64,000 nucleotides of DNA from contig JASSKH010000014.1 of assembly GCA_031763025.1 (NCBI GenBank), forward strand, positions 8,484,563-8,548,562, written 5' to 3'. Of this stretch, positions 6,489-51,344 are shown piece by piece. A program made the position numbers and the translations under genes. Every line of letters begins with the position of its first letter. The stretch's first letter is position 1. The notes below the pieces were generated by a model. That model was not told where the DNA came from. It searched no databases and saw only the letters and a list, made by a program, of their open reading frames with translations. The stretch comes from Macrocystis pyrifera (Eukaryota > Sar > Phaeophyceae > Laminariales > Laminariaceae).

Positions 6489-7949
6489 TGCAGGAGTAGA
6501 GGTGGGCACCTTCGGGGAAAATTTAAAAAAAAAAAAAACGAAAACCGGATAACGAGACGCTATTCTGAAAACGAAAACCGGATAAAACCGTTTTTTTTCA
6601 CCCGGTTTTAACCGACGTCCAATACGTACTGATTTTGTGGATTCCGAGCTACTGGTTGCATGCGACCATAAAATGAGGTGGTGTGGCACTACTGTAGCTG
6701 CCATAACAACAGCACGTAATGGTAAGGCCGGGGTGACGTGATTTCATGGAATACAACAAGACCTTGCCTATCTATATATGTACTGATCAAGTATACAGTA
6801 GCACAGCAGTAGTACCATACACCTGCCGCCTGGTCGTATATCATATATTTGTGTAGAGCTTCAACCATTGCAGCCCTACAAGGCTATTATACTTGCTCCA
6901 GCGGTACATGTAGCAATCTCTAGTAATAAATTGAGGCATGGAGGACGTGCAGCAGGCTCGACGAGTTCAAGTGTTTACCTGATACATATAATAAGGTGTT
7001 CCTGGTACATAATAGTGATACCCTTATTGGCAGGGTTTTGCACAGCAAGTCGGCGTGCGCCGAGGTAATGTATTACAGGAGACAAAAAAGAGAACAGGAA
7101 ATTGTACGGTTCTCGCGATGACACGCACTGCTGTGTGGGACCAAAAGAAACAACCGCTGATGTGTAATTTATCGCTTATTTCTCGTTTGACTTTGCATCG
7201 GTGCCTCCCCCCCCGAAGACTATCGAACACCGAACAGCAGCAGTAGTAGTCAGCTGTTCGCGTGTAGTAACAAAGTGAAACACCCACCCCTACAGTAGTA
7301 GTTACCACAGGACACCGACCGGGACATTATATAACCTGCAAACGCCACCGGAACAAATGGGGGGGCAAGATAACTATGGCAGTCCCTTAGCTGGCAGCGC
7401 CCACACCCAACACCCCAAGAAGCTACGCCACCTGAACCAGCAGCACCCACATATTAACGATCCCGACATCCAGGTAAAACAGCAAAGCCTTACGGTCAGC
7501 GTGCAAATATTTCGAAAAATTACAAAATGGCAGTGTCACAATTTCACGATGAGCACAATTTCATCCGGTACGGGCACGTCTAACATAACACGGGGCAGTT
7601 GACGCCAGCAATCTTCCAATCAAACGGCTGAAATAACGCGAACAACGGGAGCCATCTTCCAATAAAATCGCTGTATTGACGGGAACCACGAGAACCACGT
7701 GAAATCACGCCGCACACAAAACTAGAAGAAAGACACAGCTCGCAGCTCGCACACCCGTAGTCACGCGACGATTGACCTTCGATCTCGACATAAAATCCAC
7801 CCACGGTCAACAAGCTTGGTACCGGGCAAGGCCAATGAGAGTAAATTATGGCCTGGGAGGTATAATTGGACTCCGTGGCCTAGGGGGCGAGAGGTTGGCC
7901 GCGGCGTCCTATGCTCTTCGTCAAAGCTTTTAAAAAGTTCTGTTTCGCG

Positions 7950-8390
7950 CCAACGGAGAGGAATCGAGAGTTTTCGTTGTCTGCTTTCTACACACCAGCT
8001 GCCAAATGTGTTTTCAGTAGACGCCTGGCCCACCCACGCCACATATCACCGACCGAGGTGTGAGAACTGTGATACTAGTGTCGGTCGGAGCCTCTAACCA
8101 GCGCGCTTCATTCAGAGTTCGTGACGCAATCGTTGGGTTTGTCGATCGATGTCAAACCTGAAAAATGGTCTATTTTTTGCCATCAGAGAGGGGTAGAGAT
8201 TTTTTGTCGTCTGTATTCTACAGACCAGTGCCATAATGTTTTTTTTATCAGACGCCTGGTCACGCCACATATCACCGACCGAGGTGTGAGCACTGTGACA
8301 CTAGGCTGGGTCGGAGACCATAACCAGCGCATTCCGCTCAGATTTCATGACGGTGTCGTTGATTTTGTCGATCGATGTCTGCCGAGGATT
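7950..8390. repeat. Diverged tandem duplication, period about 229 bp
   Basis: Two neighbouring units start at about 7,950 and 8,179. Shared blocks are GACGCCTGG, a CACATATCACCGACCGAGG word and GTCGATCGATGTC. Each unit has a small stem formed by CCGACCGAGG and a downstream TCGGTCGG. No coding frame is shared, so this looks like structural duplication inside the hAT-like element. Confidence 0.7.
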
Positions 8391-35742: not shown

Positions 35743-36037
35743 CTCAATCAAGGTCTACATAAATGCCTGGTACCATACTAGCCAATTAATACGCACAACG
35801 TTACGCTGAACTTCACAATTCCCCATCCTTTTGCCATCACCAACACAAAATTTCTGCGTCCAGCTTGATCCAGCCTACCAGACACCGCCGCTACTCATTA
35901 CTCATTACTCATCGTACATTGTACCTGGTACAATCGATGCAGTAGTCGATTATACAAGTAGTGAGACTAAAAATGACTGAAGTTGCTCGTATACCATTCA
36001 GCATCATTCTAGTAATAGTAGTGTTTACGTATGTGTG

Positions 36038-36742
36038 TGTGTGTTCTTCACATTAAACCGTTCTTCTACTCATCGACATCCAGCAAGCCCAGTGTCCGTG
36101 CTGATTCTTCACCCTAGAAAGATACGAGCTCTCTCTGTGGTCACAGACTATGACACAGAGATAACACACCGTGATGCGTTAATAGTCTACGCAATACCAT
36201 GCCTTCGCACTAGGTGCGGCCGACACAACATACATACATACGCCAGCAACCAAAATACACCATAAAGAAAGAGAAGCAACGAAGAAATGTTATGAGGCTT
36301 AGATTGGGTAGGCGATTGGTTAACCTTTTACCTTTAGCCCAACGGACTAGGAACTTAACAGATGGCGTCGACGGCAGGACATGGGTTGTTGGTCGTGAGT
36401 TCGAATCTCACGTCCACCATGAAATCGCTTTTTAAAGAAAAGTGAATTTCCTCGTGTCAAGAATCTGAAAAAATACTTCTGGATCCCCAGAAATTGGAAC
36501 CGCGTGTTGGTGTCACGCGTCGACCCGTATATCCGGTCCGTTCCAGGGGGGAAAGTGTTATGAGGCTTAGATTGGGCAGGCGATTGGTTAACCTTTTACC
36601 TTTAGCCCAACGGACTAAGACCTTAACAGAAACCAAACCGAAAAAAGAAAAGGAGAAGATCCCAAATAAATAAATAAAATGGGAAGCCAAAGCTCAGACA
36701 CATACATGCCCCGAGCATGAGCCAAAATGGACGTGCAAGGGG
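36038..36742 (-). repeat. R1 repeat, interrupted by a miniature LTR element
   Basis: The sequence from GTTCTTCACATTAAACCG to GAGCCAAAATGGACGTGCAAGG matches 37,752-38,116 almost base for base, except for the inserted element at 36,288-36,628. The R1 core is oriented opposite to the copies at 32.9 and 55.6 kb. It has no coding capacity. Confidence 0.85.
36288..36628 (+). mobile_element. Miniature LTR element (TRIM-like), copy 2
   Basis: LTRs of 73 bp lie at 36,288-36,360 and 36,556-36,628 (TGTTATGAGG...CTTAACA). The target duplication is GAAA (36,284-36,287; 36,629-36,632). A polypurine tract AGGGGGGAAAG abuts the 3' LTR, and a candidate primer-binding site TGGCGTCGACGGCAGG starts two bases after the 5' LTR. 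An A-box-like TAGCCCAACGG (36,335-36,345) and a perfect T arm GTGAG-TTCGAAT-CTCAC (36,395-36,411) are 60 bases apart, as in class II tRNA genes, although no matching 5' acceptor strand exists. The uninterrupted paralogue at about 38.0 kb reads AACGAAGAAACC, proving insertion with a 4-bp duplication. Confidence 0.9.
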
Positions 36743-37512
36743 GAAGAAACGGGAAGGAAAAAGGGAAATACCCTGGTATGCATCCCGGGGAACACTTCAC
36801 TAAGTAAAAAGAGAAATAATGAGTGGGCCAAAAAACGCTCGTCACCCACCCACTATATGTAGTACTTCTTTCATATGGATAAGAATATACTATGTTATGG
36901 TAGCAAGACTTCCGTAACACCTCTGCCCTCGCATATCGTCGTTCGATACGGGCTGCTGCCGCGGCTGATACGGTAACATAATAATAATGTTGACGTTGTA
37001 TTGACCATACCAGGTATATTATACTATGGACCCCTCTAAATTAGGTGTGTGTTGCGATAGCCACTATTATGACGGGGGACCATAGTAAATACCAGGTAGG
37101 ACACACGGTGCACACAAAAACCTACCTGGTATATATTTACCTATTCTTGCCAACAATACTTGGCCCTACTAACTATGCCCCCCCGTAATAGGAATTTCAC
37201 TATTAATAACACACTAACGAACATAGTGTCACGTATGCGTTTGGTTGGCCTGTGTACGTACGTTATCCGTCTAAAGGGTGTTGCGGTAGCAAGTAAGAAT
37301 CCCGCTGACACACAAAAAAAATAACGTCGCTCGCTACGGACTGATGTCGTCTCTAACACTGCAACATAATGTTAACGTTTAATTGACCATGTATGTTATT
37401 CCTTAAACGTGTGTTACGATAGACACAAGGAATTCCGCCAACACGCCAACATAGTGTTACTCGCTATGGGGCTGCACACCTTAGCACCGTAGGAGGTCAT
37501 TGCTTTTCTTCC
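36743..37512. other. No gene; AACATAGTGTTA-type words
   Basis: Short frames only. Several near-palindromic words (TAACACTA, AACATAATGTT) occur, like those massed at 51.6-52.5 kb. Confidence 0.4.
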
Positions 37513-37745
37513 ATTTTTGATTTTTGTTTTTGTTTTTTTTTTTTTCGACTTCACGTTCATTTTTTCGACGTCGAGTTGTTTTTTGCATCCTTTCTATTCC
37601 TTCCTGGGTACATGCGGTCTTCTCGGTTTCTATGGCGACTTGTACAGCGCACCGCATGGACCTGCCTGACACGTACGCGCGCGGACCTCACTTTTTTATT
37701 TTTGTCTGAGGTGTGGATGTGTTGTCTGAGGTGTAGATGTATGTG
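37513..37745 (+). repeat. Interspersed repeat R3
   Basis: T-rich start, then TTTCGACGTCGAG, TGCGGTCTTCTCGGTTTC, GGCGACTTGTACAGCG and GTCTGAGGTGTGGATG. A second copy lies at 60,590-60,780 and a partial inverted copy at 38,748-38,812. It adjoins an R1 copy here. Confidence 0.75.
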
Positions 37746-37751
37746 TAGATG

Positions 37752-38116
37752 TGTGTGTGTGTTCTTCACATTAAACCGTTCTTCTACTCGTCGACATCCA
37801 GCAAGCCCAGTGTCCGTGCTGATTCTTCACCCTAGAAAGATACGAGCTCTGTGGTCACAGACTACGACACAGAGATAACACACCGTAATACATTAATAGC
37901 CGACGCAATACCATGCCTTCGCACTAGGTGCGGCCGACACAACATACATACATACGCCAGCAACCAAAATACACCATAAACAAAGAGCAACAACGAAGAA
38001 ACCAAACCGAAAAAGAAAAAGAAAAGGAGAAGAATCACAAATAAATAAGTAAAATGGGAAGCCAAAGCTCAGACACATACGTACCCCGAGCATGAGCCAA
38101 AAGGGACGTGCAAGGG
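37752..38116 (-). repeat. R1 repeat, uninterrupted paralogue of 36.04-36.74 kb
   Basis: Homologous to the interrupted copy. At about 38,000 it retains the pre-insertion sequence AACGAAGAAACCAAACCG and so serves as the empty site for the miniature LTR element at 36,288. Confidence 0.85.
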
Positions 38117-39746: not shown

Positions 39747-40013
39747 TGTTATGATACTGCCTCGAATAAGGTTGAAAGCCCGGTATTTGACTGGGTTCAG
39801 GCACTGGGATCGTATCTGTAATACTTGGAATGCGTATCTTAGATGGAAATCCAGGTGTTTTCCAGAGGGGCACGAGCTGGTCTCAGTCTCCGCGTGCACA
39901 AAAGGAATACAGCTGCTCTTCCTCTATCTCTAAGCAACCAAGACACGTGAGTACCAGCGAGTACCGATTTAATAGGCAAACCTATCCAGGGATACAAAGT
40001 GTCCCGCGGCCGA
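39747..40013 (+). repeat. 5' LTR, inner end truncated
   Basis: Starts TGTTATGATACTGCC and aligns with 51,080-51,344 to GATACAAAGTGTCCC, but lacks the final GATCTTAACA. The next bases are GCGGCCGAGTCC, so a small deletion removed the LTR end and probably the primer-binding site. The two LTRs differ by many substitutions and small indels, implying an old insertion. Confidence 0.75.
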
Positions 40014-40083: not shown

Positions 40084-42198
40084 ATGCCCGCAGACGACCT
40101 CTCCGTCCTCGACGCTTGGATCATGATGGCGGACGGTTCCTGGGAGGCCCAGCAACACCGGGCGTACACCATGGCTCTGGTGGTCAGCCTCCGGAAGGCG
40201 CCCGACGCTTCTTTCTTCCACCACCGTTTTTTGGCCAAAACCTGTCACCTATCTCGTCCATTGCAAGCGGCGGGCACACCCCGCCCACCAGGGTCCCCAC
40301 CTCCGCGACAAGGGACTGGATGCTGGACACCACCCCGCCTCCTTCAGCGGTCCCTCGGACAACCCGGTTCACCAGCACCCAGGAGTTAAAGCCAGCTCTG
40401 TGGCCCGGGACCGCTCTCGCTGCCGCGCTGGCGACCAGGATCGCCGGCGTCCGAGAGTTGGAGGGGATTCGGTCGGTCCGAACGGCAGGTTCCGCCGGGG
40501 CTCAGGCGCGGACAACGACAGTGGCACATCTCGGCGAAACGGGGCTGGACGTCGGAGAAACCGAGGCAAGGGGAAGGAGAGCTCAAATGACAGCCGCTAC
40601 CGCTCACGGGGAAACTCTTCTCGAGCCACTCCTCCCAGTTCCTCCTCGGACGACAACAAAAGAGCCCCCGTCTCCGAGGTTGCGGGCGCTACCAGCAAGA
40701 GGCAAGTGATTCCCTCGCTGACTGATGTTGCTTCTTCCGCCGCGCTTCTTGGTCGTTTGACCATGTCCGATCACCGCGCCATGCCCGTGTCATCTAACCT
40801 TGCTCACGCCCGAACATCGTCGATCGACCCCGGCGCCGCAGCCGCCGCCAAAAAACACACCGCCGATGTATAACGGGCGTATAAACACAAGGGACTCAAA
40901 GACATCTTCTGCATTTCTGTCTTACCTTTTCCCTCTTTGATCAACCCTTCCGATGCCGCGCACCAACTCACTCGCTTGGTCAAGGCCTCCGCGTCTGACG
41001 TCCTGTGCAACGATGGCAGCCATGAAGGTCTTAGTTCAACTGATAATCCCCGGTTGGGAGTACCCCCTCAAGAAATCCTTCGCGCGCGCCATCGCGCCTG
41101 ACAAGCCCACGACCGCCCCCCTCACTACCTTGATTGATGATTTTTTCGGACAGGTGTCGCGCGCCCTCGCAGCCGGATCGACGGGACCGGAGGCGTTCGC
41201 GCTCCTCCTGAGGTTACTGAGCAACCACTTCGACCGCACCGACACGGGGGCCAGCTACACCAAGTTGCATAATTTTGGCGTGCCTAACGGGACTCCCTTT
41301 TGCGATTTAGCCGTGCATTTCGAGGGGTGGTGTCAGCAGCGACGGGGACTGAGCGTGTTTTGGCACCGGGGGTGGAGAATATTATGGAGGTGGTTCGGAT
41401 GGCAGTGAACGAGCAGTACCCCAGCTTGATGCCCACGCTGTACCCGGGAGTTTTGGCTGCGGTATCGAGGCGGTTCGGCACTTTGGACGCCATGTGGCTG
41501 GCTTTTGAGACTCTAGCGAATAATAGGACACCTGCCATCAACGGCGAAAAATATTTTTCTTTGCCTGCTTGTTCGACGGGTGCGCGGTCATCCGCCCCGT
41601 CGGGGCCCCGGCCCACCAATAATGGTCGCGGCCAGGGCCGGACGCTTCTCCAGTCGCCTTCATGGCAGACGGGATCGGCAATAATCCGCTTCTGATGAAT
41701 GTCAACAAATCTATCCCTGACTGCCTCGACCCGTGGCTTGACACCTCTTCCAACTGCTGGCCCCTAGAAGAACACCACTATGCTGAAGTTCACGCTGTTT
41801 GCATGTCCATCCAGACCGAAGACTCTCCCTTCTGGAGCGGCCTACTTTCATCGTCCACTCGCGCGGCCGCCCTCAGCGAAAACCGAGGGCACTGTTTGAA
41901 TTGTCACCAAGACATACACTCTCTCCGACAGTGTAGGCACCCCTTTCTAAACCTTAGTGGTATCTTAAACTCCGACATCGGAACGCTCGGCACCGAACAA
42001 CACAACCAGAAGAAACACAGGCGTCGTCCCGGCCACTCGCGTGGGCAACACCACGGACAGGGTCAGCAGAACAGACAAGGTGACCGCTACAACACACACG
42101 CAGAACGAGGACACCAGCAGTCTAACTCCGGCCATCACGGTGGAGGTGTGACCGCCCTTGCCTCTTCCGCCCCAGCTCCCGCCTCGGGGGTTCGCTAA
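40084..42198 (+). pseudogene. Gag polyprotein with CCHC zinc knuckle
   Basis: Gag coats the element's RNA in a virus-like particle. A start at 40,084 (MPADDLSVLDAW) lies 70 bp after the LTR. A Ser/Arg-rich disordered region follows (40,400-40,873), then a helical gag-like core (40,870-41,600; for example KVLVQLIIPGWEYPLKKSF, FDRTDTGASYTKLHNF, MAVNEQYPSLMPTLYPGV). Last comes the knuckle CLNCHQDIHSLRQC (41,893-41,934), a perfect C-x2-C-x4-H-x4-C for RNA binding, with a His/Gln/Arg-rich tail. Frameshifts near 41,000, 41,310 and 41,680 and a stop at 40,871 break it. Confidence 0.75.
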
Positions 42199-43320
42199 GG
42201 TGCCTCGCATACCTCGGGCGGAAACCCGAACGAACGCCAGCCAGGCACCTTCCGCGACGGTAACTGACAGGTCGACAGCGGCTCGGCTCCTCCCACCCGC
42301 CCGCCGCCAGCATTGCCGGGAGAAAAAACATTGATTTCACAAGATGCTCGCGTCCCAGGCTCGCTCAGCACTCAGCGCCGACCTGCTCCGCTCCCGCCCC
42401 GTGCGTTACTCCCTACTTCAGTTCCACTGCTTTTACCGGGGAGTCTCCGGGCGTCTTCCCCGATGTCAGGAGCCCGCGCCTCAAACGCCGCTCCCCTCAA
42501 CCTGGGCACGAGAGCAGGCGCGATAAACGCCGCTCTCCCGAACCACGCACCGCGCAACATGGCGAGTGTCGCGCCGCCGCGTCGTTTTTTTCAGCGAGGG
42601 TGCCCCCCTCCTCCACCTCCCGGCCATGCGGTGGCGGTCGGTTTGAGGTGCGGGAAGGCAAACACCGAAACCCCGAGATCTCGATCAAAGCTCGACTCGG
42701 TGTTTCCTCGCAATAACGGTGACCGCTCCACCCTTTTTCCTATCAAGGAGGAGTCGACAAGATAAGCCACCTCGTCCCCCTTCTCCACCAGGTCTACAGG
42801 ACGGAAGCCCTCTCCGGTGGACCCTATGTTGCCCCCCATCCGAGCACCGTTCTTGAAGACGTCTACAGGGTCTGCAGGTCCTTTTTCGCCTTCGCGCACG
42901 CTACTCCACGTGCGCAGTGCTCCTTCGGCTCAGTGGAACAGGAGCTCCAGTGGAACAGGAGAAACCTGGCACTGTCCGTCCAGCCAGTGGTGACTCCACG
43001 GCCTCCGGTCAGATCAACCGGACAGCATACCCGTTAAATTCGGAAGAATCGCAGCTCTCGTCAAGCAGAACGGGCTCAGAGCCCCCTGCCCCCTTTAGTC
43101 CAGTACAGAGATCATCGGGCGCAGTAATAGAACCTTCTGACGATTTTTTGCCTACGAGCAATGGTGACACAGAGCCAGTATACGTGGAGCCGGACTCGCC
43201 TCGTGCACCAGGGGCTCAGTGTCTCAGAGAAGCACACTCCCCCCCCCAAACACCGCAACTGCGGCCACCGACGACTCGGCACCGTCGGTCTTTGATCCTA
43301 CTTTCGAGTATTCAACGGAG
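42199..43320 (+). other. Linker between gag and NADAR, low complexity
   Basis: GC-rich Pro/Ser/Ala-coding sequence with no recognised domain. Open frames such as 42,313-42,765 and 42,917-43,423 change without motif. Probably a disordered part of the former polyprotein. Confidence 0.4.
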
Positions 43321-43779
43321 CGGGTGGTACTGTTGTGGCAACCACCCTCCTATTTTTCGCAGTGGTCCCCCTCGTTTTTTGTCATCGACGATGTGTCATA
43401 TTCCTGCGCGGAGCAGTATATGATGGCTGAAAAGGCTCGCCTTTTCCAGGACCACGACACAGTGGGGCAAATTATGGCCTCGACCCACGCGAGCACAAAC
43501 GCCTCGTTCGAGGCGTGTACAACTTCGACTGTGCCATCTGGGACCGCGTTCGGGAAGACGCCGTCCTTGCTGGTACTTTTGCCAAATTCTCGCAGAACCC
43601 GGCTATGAAGCAGCACCTATTGAGCACTGGCACCAAAATTTTGGCTGGAGCCAGCCCTTTTGACCCCGTGTGGGGCATCGGTCTCCGGGCAGACGATCCC
43701 GAGGCTCAAGAATCCTCTCGGTGGCGTGGGAAAAATTTTGCTCCGGAAAGCTCTCTCCGCCGTTCGCGACACCCTCCGC
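43321..43779 (+). pseudogene. NADAR (YbiA-like, DUF1768) domain
   Basis: About 153 codons, close to the length of single-domain NADAR proteins. Signatures in order: FSQWSPSFFVIDDVSYSC, AEQYMMAEKARLF (with the conserved Glu), DPREHKRLVRGVYNFD, WDRVREDAVLAGTFAKFSQN, ASPFDPVWGIGL, RADDPEAQESSRWRGKNF, KALSAVRDTLR. NADAR enzymes cleave N-glycosidic bonds: YbiA/RibX acts on riboflavin-pathway intermediates, and others remove ADP-ribose from guanine in nucleic acid. The frame shifts once near 43,482 and again near 43,740, yet signature residues remain, suggesting it was under selection while the element was active. It lies in sense between gag and protease, where Ty3/gypsy elements normally have nothing. 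Confidence 0.85.
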
Positions 43780-44013: not shown

Positions 44014-44440
44014 CACGGCTCCTGCCTCGTCGGGGGCACCATTATCCTCGATAACGCCTCTTTTACAATCAAAATCGCGATTCACAGCGGAGCTGGCGTC
44101 TTGCACCTTTTGGTTGCGTGGCGCTTCTTGAAGCTGGCTCCCCACAGACTTTCATCCGACGAGATGTTTCGGATCGCATGCACTCGGTTGATGCGGCATC
44201 CATCGCGTGCGAGCAGAAATGCGCCCCTCGTTCTTGGGGGGTTTGGGCGAATCGGCTGCCCTGCAGACTTCGACGCGTGTACGCCTGAGCGTCCAATTTT
44301 TTCGAGAAAATGAGCCTGCGTGCTCCCTCGCAGTTTGGGCCTGCGTGGTTTCCCCCCTCAGTATTGCAGCATGCAGTACTGCTGGGACGTGACAGTTGGA
44401 TGCGTTTTGATAGTCGCTCCCACCGCTCTCTGCCACCTCG
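44014..44440 (+). pseudogene. Aspartic protease
   Basis: Cuts the gag-pol precursor. The first half reads SCLVGGTIILDNASFTIKIA followed by HSGAG (44,083-44,097), matching the retroviral active site D-S-G with His in place of the catalytic Asp. The second half, after a shift, has VLLGRDSWMRF (about 44,376-44,408), the usual I-L-G-x-D/N motif. With Asp replaced and the frame broken the protease is dead. Confidence 0.7.
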
Positions 44441-45119
44441 GCCGTCTGACCAACGTGTTTTTGGCGAGCTGGAGTTAGTTCACCACGCCCCGACAGGCAT
44501 GTCCGTGTACGCCATCGCCCCCGCCGCTTCGGGTGGAGGCTTCCATCTACGCGACGAGGGCGCGGCAGGCGTCACCCTGCCCGACGATCCTCAACTGCTT
44601 GCTGTTGACGTGGTTCGAAGCGATGGCTCCCCGTCTCTCACTGAACACTACTTGGTCGACATGATGCCCCAGCCCGACCTACCCTCGGTCGAGGAGCACT
44701 TCGTCCCCTCCGAACGACAGGCTTTTCCCCTCGTTGGAATGGCGGCTCTCGAGCCGGGGGATAGCCTCCGTGTCGCCGACGCCCCAATGCTGAGCGTCCC
44801 GCTGGACGTTTTGCAGCAGGACAACCGCCCCCCCCAGCCCTCCCTCCGGACTATCTGAGGTGTCTCCGGTCTCAGCAGTTACAGCTCCTCCCCTCGCAGC
44901 TCCAGCCTCGCCCTCGCCAGCGCTGCTTGAGCATTTGAGCCCAGAACAGCGCGCTTCGTTCCTGCGCGTCTGGGCGCGCTTGCCGCTACATCTGCGGGAG
45001 TTGGCTTTTGACCTTCACGGCGCGGACTGGACCCCTGAGGCCATCGAACATCTGGGGATGTTCTCTGCGAATTTCCTGGCGTTTTCTCGAAGTCAAAGTC
45101 TGATTTTGGTTCATGCTCG
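44441..45119 (+). pseudogene. Linker and N-terminal part of pol
   Basis: Frames 44,310-44,858 and 44,860-45,123 continue from the protease and contain LSPEQRASFLRVWARLPLHL followed, in a shifted frame, by sequence leading into the RT. This matches the conserved connector before RT in Ty3/gypsy elements. A stop at 44,856-44,858 interrupts it. Confidence 0.55.
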
Positions 45120-46023
45120 TTGACGCCTTTCGTGATTTCGGTCCCGGAAGGAAGCGCTCCTGTCACGTCCAGGCCGCACCGCATCAATCCCATCCTGGCC
45201 AAGGAAGTGGAAGCCACCTTGGATCAGTACCTAGCGGCAGGCCTGATCCAGCATTCGACCTCTCCGTACTCGAGCCCGCTGGTGGTCATCCCGAAGAAGT
45301 CTGGAGGCGTTCAGATCACCGTGAACTACAAGAAACTCAACCAGACTAGCAGTCTCAGCTATCTACCTATTCCTCGCGTGGACCAAGTCCTCGACTCCCT
45401 GGGGAAGGGACGGGTGTCTTCCCTCTTCGATTTGGTCTCCTCGTTCCACTAGATTACCGCGCACAAGGACACCGTCCCTCTCACGGCGTTTTGCACCCCC
45501 ACGGGCCTCTACGAGTGGCTCGTCATGCCCCAAGGCAGCTTCGCCCGGCTGGTTCGTCAAAGTGATTAACGAAGTCATTAAAGGTCTGGCACAGGTGGCG
45601 GCCTACCTCGATGATGTGATCGTTTTCGACTCTGATCCGACGGCCCACGTCAAGACGATACGAGCCCTCTTCGAACGCCTGCGCAAACACAACCTCAAGC
45701 TCTTCCCCTCGAAGGCTCGCCTCGGCGCCACGGACGCCAATTTTCTGGGCTACTCCATTTCGCCCGCGGGTATAAGCCCCAATGCGGAAAAAGTTTCGCC
45801 TTCGATGAAAATGCCCATGCCCAAGAACCTCAAGCAGGTCCGCGCCCTGATGGGCGGCGTGGGATATTTTCGCAAATTCCTGCCCGACCTGTCTAAACGG
45901 ATACATCCTCTCACCATCCTTCTCCGCAAGGGGATCAAGTACGTCTTTACGCCGGCTGTGGAAGTTATCGTCCGCCAGATCCTCACCGAGTTCGCTGCCC
46001 CCACCGATTTTGGTCTTCCCTGA
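45120..46023 (+). pseudogene. Ty3/gypsy reverse transcriptase
   Basis: Copies element RNA into DNA. Motifs in order: VTSRPHRINPILAKEVEATL, SPYSSPLVVIPKKSGG, YLPIPRVDQVLDSL, SSLFDLVSSFH, PLTAFCTPTGLYEWLVMPQG (45,478-45,538), the catalytic VAAYLDDVIVFD (45,595-45,630), FLGYSISPAGI and MGGVGYFRKFLPDLS. All expected blocks are present. A TAG stop follows SSFH (45,450-45,452, where Gln is usual), and a one-base shift occurs near 45,540 between PQG and the next block. Confidence 0.9.
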
Positions 46024-46410
46024 CTGGGACGCCGTAGCCGACGGCTCCCGCCCCTTCCACGTGTACTGCGACGCCTGAATCGACGGTTTTGGTACAGCGC
46101 ACGGCCCATTGCTTATATCAGTCGCGCTACCCTCGGTTCCGAGAGGCACTGGACACCATTGGACCTGGAAGCTGGCAGCATTGTCTGGGCCATCAAACGA
46201 CTCCGAGGCTACCTGTGGGGCACGAAGTTTCGAATATTTTCGGACCACAGAGAACTTGAGAGCATCGGCAAAGTAGGGGACCACAGCGCGCGCGTCCAGC
46301 GGTGGCTCGAGTTCCTCACCGCGTTCGACTACACTCTCGAATACCGCAAGGGCAGCGCCAACGGAAATGCTGACTTTCTCTCCCGTTTGCCGGCGCCCGC
46401 CACAGAACAC
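46024..46410 (+). pseudogene. RNase H domain
   Basis: Removes the RNA strand after reverse transcription. FHVYCDA near 46,060-46,077, then after a stop and shift SRATLGSERHW, LDLEAGSIVWAIKRLRGYLW (46,162-46,221), FRIFSDHRELESIG (46,228-46,270) and GNADFLSRLP (46,363-46,392). These are the conserved strands and the SDH motif of Ty3/gypsy RNase H. Confidence 0.85.
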
Positions 46411-47529
46411 GACCGCAGTGGGTCTAGCTGGCTCAACCCCGTCGAGGACGGCGGTATCTTCCTCATCCGAGCCTGCGGGCTTCGCACTCGCTCTTCGCCG
46501 ACCCCTGGTGTCGGTTTGGGTGGGCTGGTGCCCCGCAGTGAAAGTGTCGTCTCGGGTGGGCTGCCTTTCACCTCCTAGGATTTTCGCGATTTTCGCGCAC
46601 ACGGGCTACGTATGAGAATTGACGACCTCTCTGCTCCTCCGGGGAGATTTGTCGCTCGTGTATCTGCTTCCGTCGCCACCGTCGATCGCCGTCCCGGCTT
46701 GAGGGCTTTTCCCTCCACCGCCAACTCCGCATTCGCTTCGGTTACTGCAGCGACGATTGTCGCTCAGCGCGCTCCTCCCCCGACGAGCACTCTACAGGGA
46801 TAAGATTCCGCCGTGATCACTGATCCGGCCGCGTCTCCCCCTTTGCCGCATGGCAACCCGGCGCCTCTGAACATCTTGCCGCCTACAGGCCGCATCTCCA
46901 CTCGGACGCGCCCACGAACAGCCGTTGCCGCTGGCACCGCGCCGCCTGCTGTTGATTATGGCTTCGGGCCCGGCGGGGCCCTAGACCACCCGCTCGGCGT
47001 GCTGTCATCCCGCCGCGAGCCCCACGGCCGCGCCCGCCCGACCCCGTCGTTATGGCCCCGGTTCCTGCCGCCTCGCCGATCCCGACGGTACCCATTCCGT
47101 CTGACCGCGACCGCACCGAGCCCGTGGGGACCCCTCTTTTACGGCTTCCGCTGACGACTGGCGCACCGCTCGTCACCACGACCGATTCGGACGCCGTCGG
47201 CGCAGCTGCCGAATTTCAGTTCGGTGATTCCGCAGCGCGCTATTCGCACGCCGACTGGGCTCGGGAACAACAGACCGAGCCTGCGTGCAACGACGCCTTG
47301 CGCTACATAGCCCTTCGCCGGCCGGCAGTTTTGCCAGCCGACCTCTTGTCGTGTTTCCCTTCCCACCAGCGCCCTCCCTTTTCGGAGGTTCATAAGCTGG
47401 CTAACAAAGGCCGCTTGCACACCACCGACGCGGGCATCGTTCTAATTGTCCGACAGCCGCCCCCCTCCCCTGCGTCGGATACGCAACGTCCGGTGGGTCG
47501 TACGGCCTGTTCATTGAACGACGAGCCTA
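46411..47529 (+). other. Pro/Ala/Arg-rich linker before integrase
   Basis: About 1.1 kb of GC-rich low-complexity coding-like sequence. From about 47,170 (frame from 47,052) the peptide becomes more ordered and leads to the integrase. Longer than the usual RNase H-integrase spacer, but no domain is recognised. Confidence 0.4.
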
Positions 47530-48720
47530 TTCGCATTTATGTGCGTGCGGCTGCTCATGCGCCCCTGGGTCATGCTGGCTTGCCATTCCACGGTGTCCTG
47601 CCACCTAGGAACCGCGCGCACCCTACGTATGCTCGAACATTTCTACTGGTGGATCGGTATGAGCATCTGCACCCGGTGGTCGTTACGCAACTGCTTAAAG
47701 TGCCAAGCACGAAAAACGTCGCGGCAGACGGTCCGGTGGCCCACCGTCACGTTGCCCTTGCCAGAAGGGCCCGGCATCGCCATCAGCATCGAATATTTCG
47801 GCGCTTTCCCGGTGACGCCTCGAGGCGATACCTACATCTTGCTTTTCGCTGATCGTTTCAGCCGCCGAGCCGACATGTACGCCGTCACAGCGGCAGAGTT
47901 CACCGCTGATGGTACGTCAACATTTTCATCAACCGGTGTATCCCCCTCTGAGGGTGCCCGCGCAGCATCCTCTAGGACAACGGCCTCCAATTCTGCTCCA
48001 AGCTTTCGCACGCCGTCAGCTTCTCGGGGTTCGAAAAATTGCCACCAGCTCCTACCACCCAAACGGCAACGGTGGGGTGGAACGTGTAAACCACACAATG
48101 GCACAGATGTTGGCAATGGTCGTCAACGAGCTCCAAAACAACTGGGATGAACAGCTCCCTCACGTCGAATTTACGTACAACAATTCCGTCAGCGCCGCCA
48201 CGGGTTTGGCTCCCAACGAGCTACATATGGATCGGCTGCCACGCCTCCCTCTCGCGATTTTCGAGCGTGCTGGGGTCCCTGGCCACCAGAGCTTGTCCCG
48301 CGACCATCTTGCCTGCCGCGACTTGGCGACAGTCCGTCAGCAGCGCGCGTACGATATCGTTCGCCAACGCCACGCCCTCACTGTTGCTCGCATGAACCGC
48401 TGTAACTCCGCCCTCTCCGACGCCCTCCGTCCAGTCCCAAAATTTGACGTTGGCGGCTGGGTGTGGGTGTACCATACGGCGGCCACCATTCGCCAAGGCG
48501 CGAAACCCGACACGGACGCCAAGGTCCTCAAGGCCAAACTCTCACTCAACAGGCCGGGCCCCTATAAAGTCCTCGCAGTTGGCCCCTGCCTCTCAGTGGA
48601 CATCCCGGACGGATCTCCTCTCGGAGCAAAGCTTCTGTATTTGGATCTTCCTTCCGATATGCCCGGCGCTGAGGCTCGCCGGCGCGTATCAATTCAACGC
48701 TGCAAGCCCTGTGCCAACCC
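47530..48720 (+). pseudogene. Integrase
   Basis: Inserts element cDNA into host DNA. The N-terminal HHCC finger includes CHLGTARTLRMLEHFYWW and CLKCQARK (47,584-47,710). The D,D-35-E core has AISIEYFGAFPV (47,779-47,814) where the first Asp is Glu, DNGLQFCSKLSHAV (about 47,978-48,020) with the second Asp, and YHPNGNGGVERVNHTM (48,056-48,103) with the catalytic Glu at 48,080. The C-terminal part has LPHVEFTYNNSV, LAPNELHMDRLPRLPL, KFDVGGWVWVYH and AKLSLNRPGPYKVL. Frameshifts occur between the finger and the second Asp, and between that and the rest. Confidence 0.88.
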
Positions 48721-48832
48721 CCACGACGGTGGCGACATGCCGAAGTATTTGGCGGCGGGGTTGACGCAATACGTGCTCAACAACTTCTCCAAGAAATCCT
48801 CCCTGTATCACATCACCGAGGACGACGTTTCA

Positions 48833-49010
48833 ACCCCTCTTCAACGATTCGAAGTGGAAAATATTCCCGGACATCAATCGGTTAGAGGTCGAGGTGGCGT
48901 CATCGCGGTGATGTACGAGACGCACTGGATAGGACTATCCCGTCCATCTTGGGAACGGGAAATGGACCTTCAGCTTTCTCGCTACGCAATTTTGCGCTAC
49001 TGGGCCGGCA
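48833..49010 (+). pseudogene. Chromodomain
   Basis: In the same frame as the integrase tail: LQRFEVENIPGHQSV, then ETHWIGLSRPSWEREMDL and YAILRYWAG. The W-x-G-x5-W-E and ILRYW pattern is that of chromodomains in chromovirus integrases, which bind methylated histone H3 and direct integration to heterochromatin. The match to 20,262-20,320 shows it is a lineage feature. Confidence 0.75.
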
Positions 49011-49059
49011 CCCCCCCGAACCAACACTGCCAAACCAACCGCCTGCATCGCCGAATGAG

Positions 49060-49398
49060 AATTGGCGCGGCACAACGAGAGCTCTCTCGAAGTAACGGCG
49101 TGCGAGTTCTGGCACCCGGCTATGGCTGCGTATCGCACGCCGACTGGCTCCACCGATACTGCAACACCGTGCTTCCCAACGGGGCCCACGTTTGGTACAA
49201 GGGCGGCGACGGTCTGTGGTGGCTCGGGAAAATCAGCGCAACTACGCCAACGGATGGAGTATATTAGGTTCGATTTTTGGACGACCCGGGACCGATCAAG
49301 CTTCGTCTTTCTCCGGCGCGCTACACGACTTCGACGAGAGCTGTACGAGGTTCTTGGTGTCTGCAAATTCACTTGACTAGCGCGTTTGCATGGGGGAT
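49060..49398 (+). pseudogene. Tudor-like domain after the chromodomain
   Basis: Sequence RIGAAQRELSRSNGVRVLAP, then LPNGAHVWYKGGDGLWWLGK (about 49,165-49,227) and, after a shift, VRFLDDPGPIKLRLSPARYT (about 49,265-49,325). G-x-V-x-Y-x5-D-G-x-W-x3-V/I followed by V-R-F-x-D is the barrel pattern of Tudor/SH3-type folds, which often read methylated lysine or arginine. The assignment is by pattern only. The sequence ends at the MITE insertion. Confidence 0.55.
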
Positions 49399-51079: not shown

Positions 51080-51344
51080 TGTTATGATACTGCCTCGAAT
51101 GAGGCTGAAATCCCGGTACTTACCTGGGTTCAGGCACTGGGATCACATTTGGAATACTTGGAAGGCGTATCTTAGGTGGTTTTCCAGAGGGGCACGAGTT
51201 TGGTCTCAGTCTCCGCGTGCACGGAAGGAACAAAACTGCTCTTCTTCTATCTCTAAACAACCAAGACACGTGAGTATCAACGAGTATCGACCTAATAGGC
51301 AAACCTGTCCAGGGATACAAAGTGTCCCCCTGCTGATCTTAACA
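51080..51344 (+). repeat. 3' LTR of the gypsy element
   Basis: Runs from TGTTATGATACTGCC to GATCTTAACA, with TG...CA ends. It has a deletion of about 12 bp relative to the 14.4 and 63.6 kb copies, in the block CTTAGRTGG...TTTTCCAGAGG. Confidence 0.85.

Follow-up and report, generated by a model that had tools for sequence, protein, structure and literature searches.

The NADAR-bearing element in the window

The window analysed here, a stretch of 64,000 nucleotides from the giant kelp Macrocystis pyrifera (contig C194, 8484563-8548562), contains a Ty3/gypsy retrotransposon that carries a NADAR domain. The domain lies in sense on the + strand at 43291-43779, between a CCHC-type gag and the protease; a preliminary description of this sequence had recognized it at 43321-43779, in the same placement. 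Two frame pieces match the Pfam NADAR profile (PF08719, curated cut-off 35.1 bits), one at 43.5 bits (profile positions 8-70) and the other at 86.4 bits (profile positions 66-149), and tblastn with sister copies supports the same extent. The domain is read successively in frames 0, 2 and 0, corresponding to two frameshifts. A motif scan located the signature blocks that had been said to persist through these frameshifts: CAEQYMMAEKARLF at 43405-43446, LAGASPFDPVWGIG at 43641-43682, RWRGKN at 43719-43736 and RKALSAVRDTLR at 43744-43779.

The rest of the element is laid out around the domain on the same strand, bounded by a pair of repeats resembling long terminal repeats (LTRs) at 39747-40013 (ends approximate) and 51080-51336, which are 84.7% identical over 268 columns. 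Upstream of the NADAR domain, the motif scan found the gag CCHC zinc knuckle CLNCHQDIHSLRQC at 41893-41934, in a gag frame that has matches in other copies. Downstream, at 44118-44153, the retropepsin-like protease (PR) was called by its active-site motif since the region has no Pfam match; this motif is VALLEAGSPQTF in the window and VALLDTGSPQSF in the other copies read. The reverse transcriptase (RT) at 45039-46023 (RVT_1, 38.8 bits on 45325-46023; YLDD at 45604-45627), the RNase H (RH) region at 46024-46578, which includes the motif NADFLSRLP, and the integrase (IN) region at 47500-49267 (start approximate), with a weak chromodomain and a Tudor-like C-terminal part, are all colinear with other copies. 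Two of these copies, L017 and L023, match RT_RNaseH and, in the integrase region, Integrase_H2C2, with rve and Chromo (E 0.0037) below cut-off; a Pfam search of the window's own integrase-region frames gave no match. In the window, the order between the LTR-like pair is gag-PR-RT-RNaseH-integrase, that of Ty3/gypsy elements, and 14 of the 20 RT-selected copies described below are colinear with it.

Judging from its sequence, the window copy is a dead relic that no longer functions: it keeps seven of eight ADP-ribose-contact residues, with G at the equivalent of the catalytic E125, its protease motif has E in place of the active-site D, and its RT is spread over two frames and interrupted by a stop.

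Two side observations concern the rest of the window. At the integrase C-terminus (GAHVWYKGGDG at 49181-49213 in the window; L023 at 6871-8220), a chromodomain-like part is followed by the stretch GAHVWYKGGDGLWWLGKI, whose likeness to a Tudor domain was judged by eye; chromatin-reader domains, one of them a Tudor, have been reported on Ectocarpus Gypsy elements (Dinatale et al., 2025; PMC12477816). Outside the element, at 36031-38116, lie nested direct repeats (D1, D3, D5 and D6) of 78-155 bp, spaced 268 to 1,718 bp apart.

The domain across copies and families

The NADAR profile picked out 1,264 first-look candidates in the genome (537,376,219 bases in 223 contigs); 150 were scored, and all 150 exceeded 35.1 bits. 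Sister copies reach E = 9.4e-51, which excludes a chance match in the window. At least 43 of the 150 are followed on their own strand by an RT match of this family, and in 33 of these the distance is 1,749-1,777 bp. On contig C204, the NADAR match (7350719) and the RT match (7352927) are each placed in an open frame of 1,696 aa and are separated by a multiple of three; the open frames around other NADAR matches reach 2,349 and 2,016 aa. The 1,696-aa frame and the recurrent spacing rule out a host gene that the element flanks by chance.

A sample of copies picked without reference to NADAR came from a search with the window RT (3,288 candidates, 150 scored), by taking every third of the 150 listed matches (50 copies) and reading the 20 highest-ranked. 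A NADAR match, intact or broken, is followed by PR and RT in 16 of these 20, and the full order gag-NADAR-PR-RT-RH-IN is present in 14. The four copies without NADAR (L012, L014, L021 and L025) have no gag match either in the stretch read. The preliminary description had proposed capture of the domain by a Ty3/gypsy element, to be abandoned if family copies lacked the domain; the many copies recovered, most of the RT-selected sample among them, the scores well over the profile threshold and the open frame joining NADAR to RT uphold the capture. Among individual copies, L017 has a single 1,187-aa frame holding RVT_1, RNase H, Integrase_H2C2 and rve (below cut-off) in that order, and in L004 the NADAR frame extends back across the gag C-terminus. 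By comparison with the window, the L004 NADAR frame would be +1 to the CCHC frame, the offset expected if Pol is made by frameshifting.

The kelp elements carry three deep NADAR families, which we call T1, T2 (the family of the window) and T3 (L144-L151). T1 accounts for 88 of the 150 scored matches (by profile coordinates) and its domain is 51-52% identical to T2, while the T3 domain shares 57-60% identity with L001, the T2 reference; the families align nearly gap-free at 41-60% identity, with synonymous sites near saturation. All eight ADP-ribose-contact residues are kept in 71 of 75 full kelp domains, although T1 and T2 domains were drawn mostly from the 150 best NADAR matches, which biases the counts of intact residues as well as the singleton counts given below. 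The last-strand catalytic position is E in all 75, as expected of the YbiA subfamily, which has been distinguished by Glu rather than Asp or His at this position (PMC11125620). A related retrotransposon protein has the YbiA-like fold of the Phytophthora nicotianae NADAR (PDB 8BAU; Schuller et al., 2023), to which it is 32% identical in structural alignment; unlike the kelp domains, the Phytophthora protein is stand-alone and non-mobile.

Many T1 elements have lost RT. The RT region was read through in 26 T1 copies: six keep RT, and the other 20 have the same internal deletion, which fuses an N-terminal piece of RT to RNase H. A 34-base pattern spanning the junction occurs at 121 genome sites with at most three mismatches, compared with 0 for the reversed control, and at least 55 of the 150 NADAR matches have the junction 1,354-1,493 bp downstream (100 of the 121 sites used). 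Between RT-bearing and RT-less T1 copies, the NADAR domains differ on average by a nonsynonymous distance (dN) of 0.019 and a synonymous distance (dS) of 0.040, which indicates that the deletion is recent. Since the deleted form occupies 121 sites and is unable to make RT, it must have borrowed RT from relatives.

Selection on the domain and its origin

Between families, pairwise dN/dS is 0.15-0.33 with synonymous sites close to saturation, which argues that the NADAR domain has been constrained over long times; part of this constraint would be older than the elements if T1 represents a separate capture. Within families, the corresponding polymorphism ratio (pN/pS) is 0.47-0.73 (with two T2 copies counted twice), which combines selection that acted before insertion with the neutral decay that followed it. 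We took variants present in at least two copies as having passed through replication (shared variants) and all others as singletons, and compared both with a mutational expectation using a transition weight of 4. The counts ignore kinship among copies and include domains with at most 16 gaps over 165 columns (42 of 46 in T1, 28 in T2 and 7 of 8 in T3), with T2 recounted on 26 distinct copies because L003 equals L017 and L007 equals L020. Nonsynonymous and synonymous shared variants number 19 and 19 in T1 (0.37 of expectation), 17 and 16 in T2 (0.41), and 1 and 2 in T3; the singletons number 58 and 30 (0.72), 114 and 50 (0.89), and 36 and 26 (0.55), respectively. The difference between shared variants and singletons, with T1 and T2 pooled, has a Fisher p of 0.008. 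This depletion of amino-acid changes among shared variants is a sign of purifying selection on the domain.

The 31 RT-less T1 copies with a full NADAR domain have 17 nonsynonymous and 16 synonymous shared variants (0.40 of expectation, one-sided p 0.007) and 42 and 25 singletons (0.63). In 20 RT-less copies, the RNase H remnant is out of frame with the preceding RT fragment, and its shared variants number 13 and 6 (0.96). This derivative thus lost RT while its NADAR domain appears to have stayed constrained.

Named close relatives are small predicted proteins, one set of 227-252 aa from the brown algae Ectocarpus, Pylaiella and Scytosiphon, the other from Nannocystis. In our trees, the small brown-algal proteins form one group with T2, T3, P0121, P0123 and the metagenome protein P0113 (97/91; 95/90 in a second tree). 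Within it, T3 groups with P0123, an Ectocarpus protein with both NADAR and RT (98/92), which suggests that the association of NADAR with the element probably predates the split between kelps and Ectocarpus, barring a transfer of the element from one species to another. Outside the brown-algal group lie Chrysoparadoxa P0110 (weak support), Myxococcota and Planctomycetota, and T1 sits outside it on a long branch. The retrotransposon domains without T1 make up one side of a branch at 88/84 that is not starred. Neither a single origin of all retrotransposon NADAR domains (p-AU, from the approximately unbiased test, 0.149 in an earlier tree and 0.276 in the first of the two above) nor one group of these domains with the small brown-algal proteins (p-AU 0.419 in the earlier tree and 0.319 in the second) is rejected. 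The trees, of which the one with bacterial relatives includes 31 of 80 bacterial loci, suggest that the nearest relative is a brown-algal protein and that the link to bacteria is older. Earlier work argued for transfer from proteobacteria of an Ectocarpus DUF1768 protein, whose gene (Esi0017_0056) is induced by stress and made Arabidopsis more tolerant of stress (PMC7922944), and the report on the Ectocarpus elements suggests possible horizontal transfer and describes mostly bacterial matches outside Ectocarpus (PMC12477816).

The small brown-algal genes might instead descend from the elements by domestication. The tree leaves the direction unfixed within their common group, and the small proteins were judged cellular from their length and absence of RT only. 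We nevertheless consider domestication doubtful, as outside the group the relatives, from Chrysoparadoxa and Myxococcota, are predicted to stand alone.

Several more distant relatives were encountered in the searches. P0124, a 1,415-aa database protein, is a Gypsy polyprotein whose N-terminal NADAR domain falls with those of Myxococcus (90/91); a second, independent capture may have occurred there at the same polyprotein position. In a phage collection, relatives of the kelp domain are encoded in 683 of 50,697 records, all below 60% identity, and the top three among the matches listed are annotated as GTP cyclohydrolase. The database proteins P0125 and P0126 have PF01661 (macrodomain), PF07179 and NADAR in one chain, which brings two ADP-ribose-acting folds into the same protein.

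Proposed function and its alternatives

We tentatively favour, at somewhat under an even chance, a reading in which a brown-algal Ty3/gypsy lineage took up a YbiA-type NADAR gene from a cell, came to carry it stably at the Pol N-terminus directly before the protease, and uses the particle-borne enzyme to clear ADP-ribose from its own nucleic acid. The domain would be made as part of Gag-Pol, enter the particle with it, and be freed or exposed there by the protease; it would then hydrolyse N-glycosidic ADP-ribose from guanine in packaged RNA or nascent complementary DNA (cDNA), which would keep reverse transcription from being blocked. The likeliest need would be counter-defence against a host ADP-ribosyltransferase or, in a weaker version, repair of stress-induced ADP-ribosylation. 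Base-linked ADP-ribose on element nucleic acid is favoured as the substrate because a NADAR domain within Gag-Pol would share the particle with the RNA and RT, and because the NADARs assayed remove ADP-ribose from guanosine in DNA (PMC11125620) and in RNA (PMC11833690). The retained active site, this published chemistry and the purifying selection are consistent with counter-defence.

Several observations weigh against this reading. The copies were mostly chosen by NADAR score, which favours intact domains, and the depleted singletons of T3 (0.55) and RT-less T1 (0.63) may reflect that choice. An open frame may be under selection for the sake of Gag-Pol expression and not of the NADAR domain itself, and a direct comparison of the NADAR domain with the RNase H remnant is not significant (Fisher p 0.26). 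E. coli YbiA is reported to act on riboflavin intermediates, and Ectocarpus P0123 has R at the W133 position and K at the R93 position. A six-frame search of the genome that ignored introns gave 0 matches to DarT (PF14487), and the DarT1-NADAR toxin-antitoxin arrangement, in which DarT1 adjoins NADAR, is accordingly not found at this scope. Of the interpretation in the preliminary description, the capture stands, whereas counter-defence by reversing ADP-ribosylation is not demonstrated here.

The domain sits upstream of the protease, where betaretroviruses carry a dUTPase, an accessory nucleotide-pool enzyme unrelated to NADAR in kind and chemistry, and the captured enzyme might likewise have small-molecule substrates, such as damaged nucleotides or ADP-ribose signals in cyclic or free form, and so damp a host alarm or clean nucleotide pools. 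A survey of viral NAD-ADP-ribose proteins assigns phage NADARs mainly to small ADP-ribose derivatives; we hold this alternative unlikely, as the same survey assigns the eukaryotic RNA-virus versions to macromolecules (PMC9503650) and the NADARs tested act on guanosine-linked ADP-ribose (PMC11125620, PMC11833690). We think it quite improbable that NADAR serves mainly as an RNA- or ADP-ribose-binding module of Gag-Pol, in packaging or cap and ribonucleoprotein handling, with little catalysis needed: RNA processing has been suggested for the Ectocarpus NADAR elements (PMC12477816) and the nematode NADAR protein SNA-3 is reported to work in an RNA complex, but SNA-3 itself is impaired by mutating conserved NADAR residues, and the eight contact residues, catalytic acids included, hardly vary among the 75 copies from the three families.

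Two further alternatives were weighed. The domain could be a passenger, captured by accident and kept only since Pol must stay open; singletons are nearer neutral (0.72 in T1, 0.89 in T2) and selection on the frame alone already removes stops and frameshifts. We consider this very unlikely, as frame-keeping leaves unexplained the shared-variant depletion, the active-site pattern and the nearly gap-free alignment between families at 41-60% identity despite near-saturated synonymous sites. YbiA-like housekeeping, in which reactive riboflavin intermediates are cleared for the benefit of the cell, agrees with the E. coli activity and the YbiA-type glutamate of the kelp domains; it seems the least plausible of all, as an enzyme of benefit to the cell would give a selfish element no reason to retain it in three families and an RT-less derivative.

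The proposed clearing of element nucleic acid can be extended to the derivative, although we regard the extension as improbable: brown algae would restrict retroelements by ADP-ribosylating their nucleic acid, NADAR would counter this, and the RT-deleted form, with NADAR under selection and a drifting RNase H remnant, would be a satellite that takes RT from relatives but has to supply NADAR itself, since the enzyme would chiefly protect its own coding RNA.

A literature search combining NADAR or YbiA with retrotransposons returned, among the matches listed, one report on point, which describes a NADAR-bearing Gypsy lineage in Ectocarpus, Gypsy-12_Ec32 (Dinatale et al., 2025; PMC12477816). Because of this report the kelp fusion is not new in kind; it adds to a known kind of element already found in another brown alga. 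The likeness extends to the grouping of kelp T3 with Ectocarpus P0123, and NADAR precedes RT in kelp. The kelp elements differ in their three deep families, in the RT-deleted derivative that keeps NADAR, and in nearest relatives that are brown-algal; the accessible text of that report (PMC12477816) contains no RT-less derivative, active-site census, selection signal or nearest-relative result of this kind. The same report places NADAR in a Tx1 retrotransposon of Crassostrea gigas, which differs in being a long interspersed nuclear element rather than an LTR element, in the position of the domain in open reading frame 1, and in its unrelated host. Polyproteins of eukaryotic RNA viruses with NADAR or macrodomains (PMC9503650) likewise hold an ADP-ribose-acting domain in a replicase polyprotein, but these are RNA viruses with no integrase or LTRs.

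The kelp elements extend this enzyme capture from Ectocarpus to giant kelp, where three families and a derivative without RT have all kept the active site. A testable claim follows, that brown-algal selfish elements may face ADP-ribosylation of their nucleic acids. Base ADP-ribosylation is poorly known in eukaryotes, and an element that needs an eraser would point to a writer.
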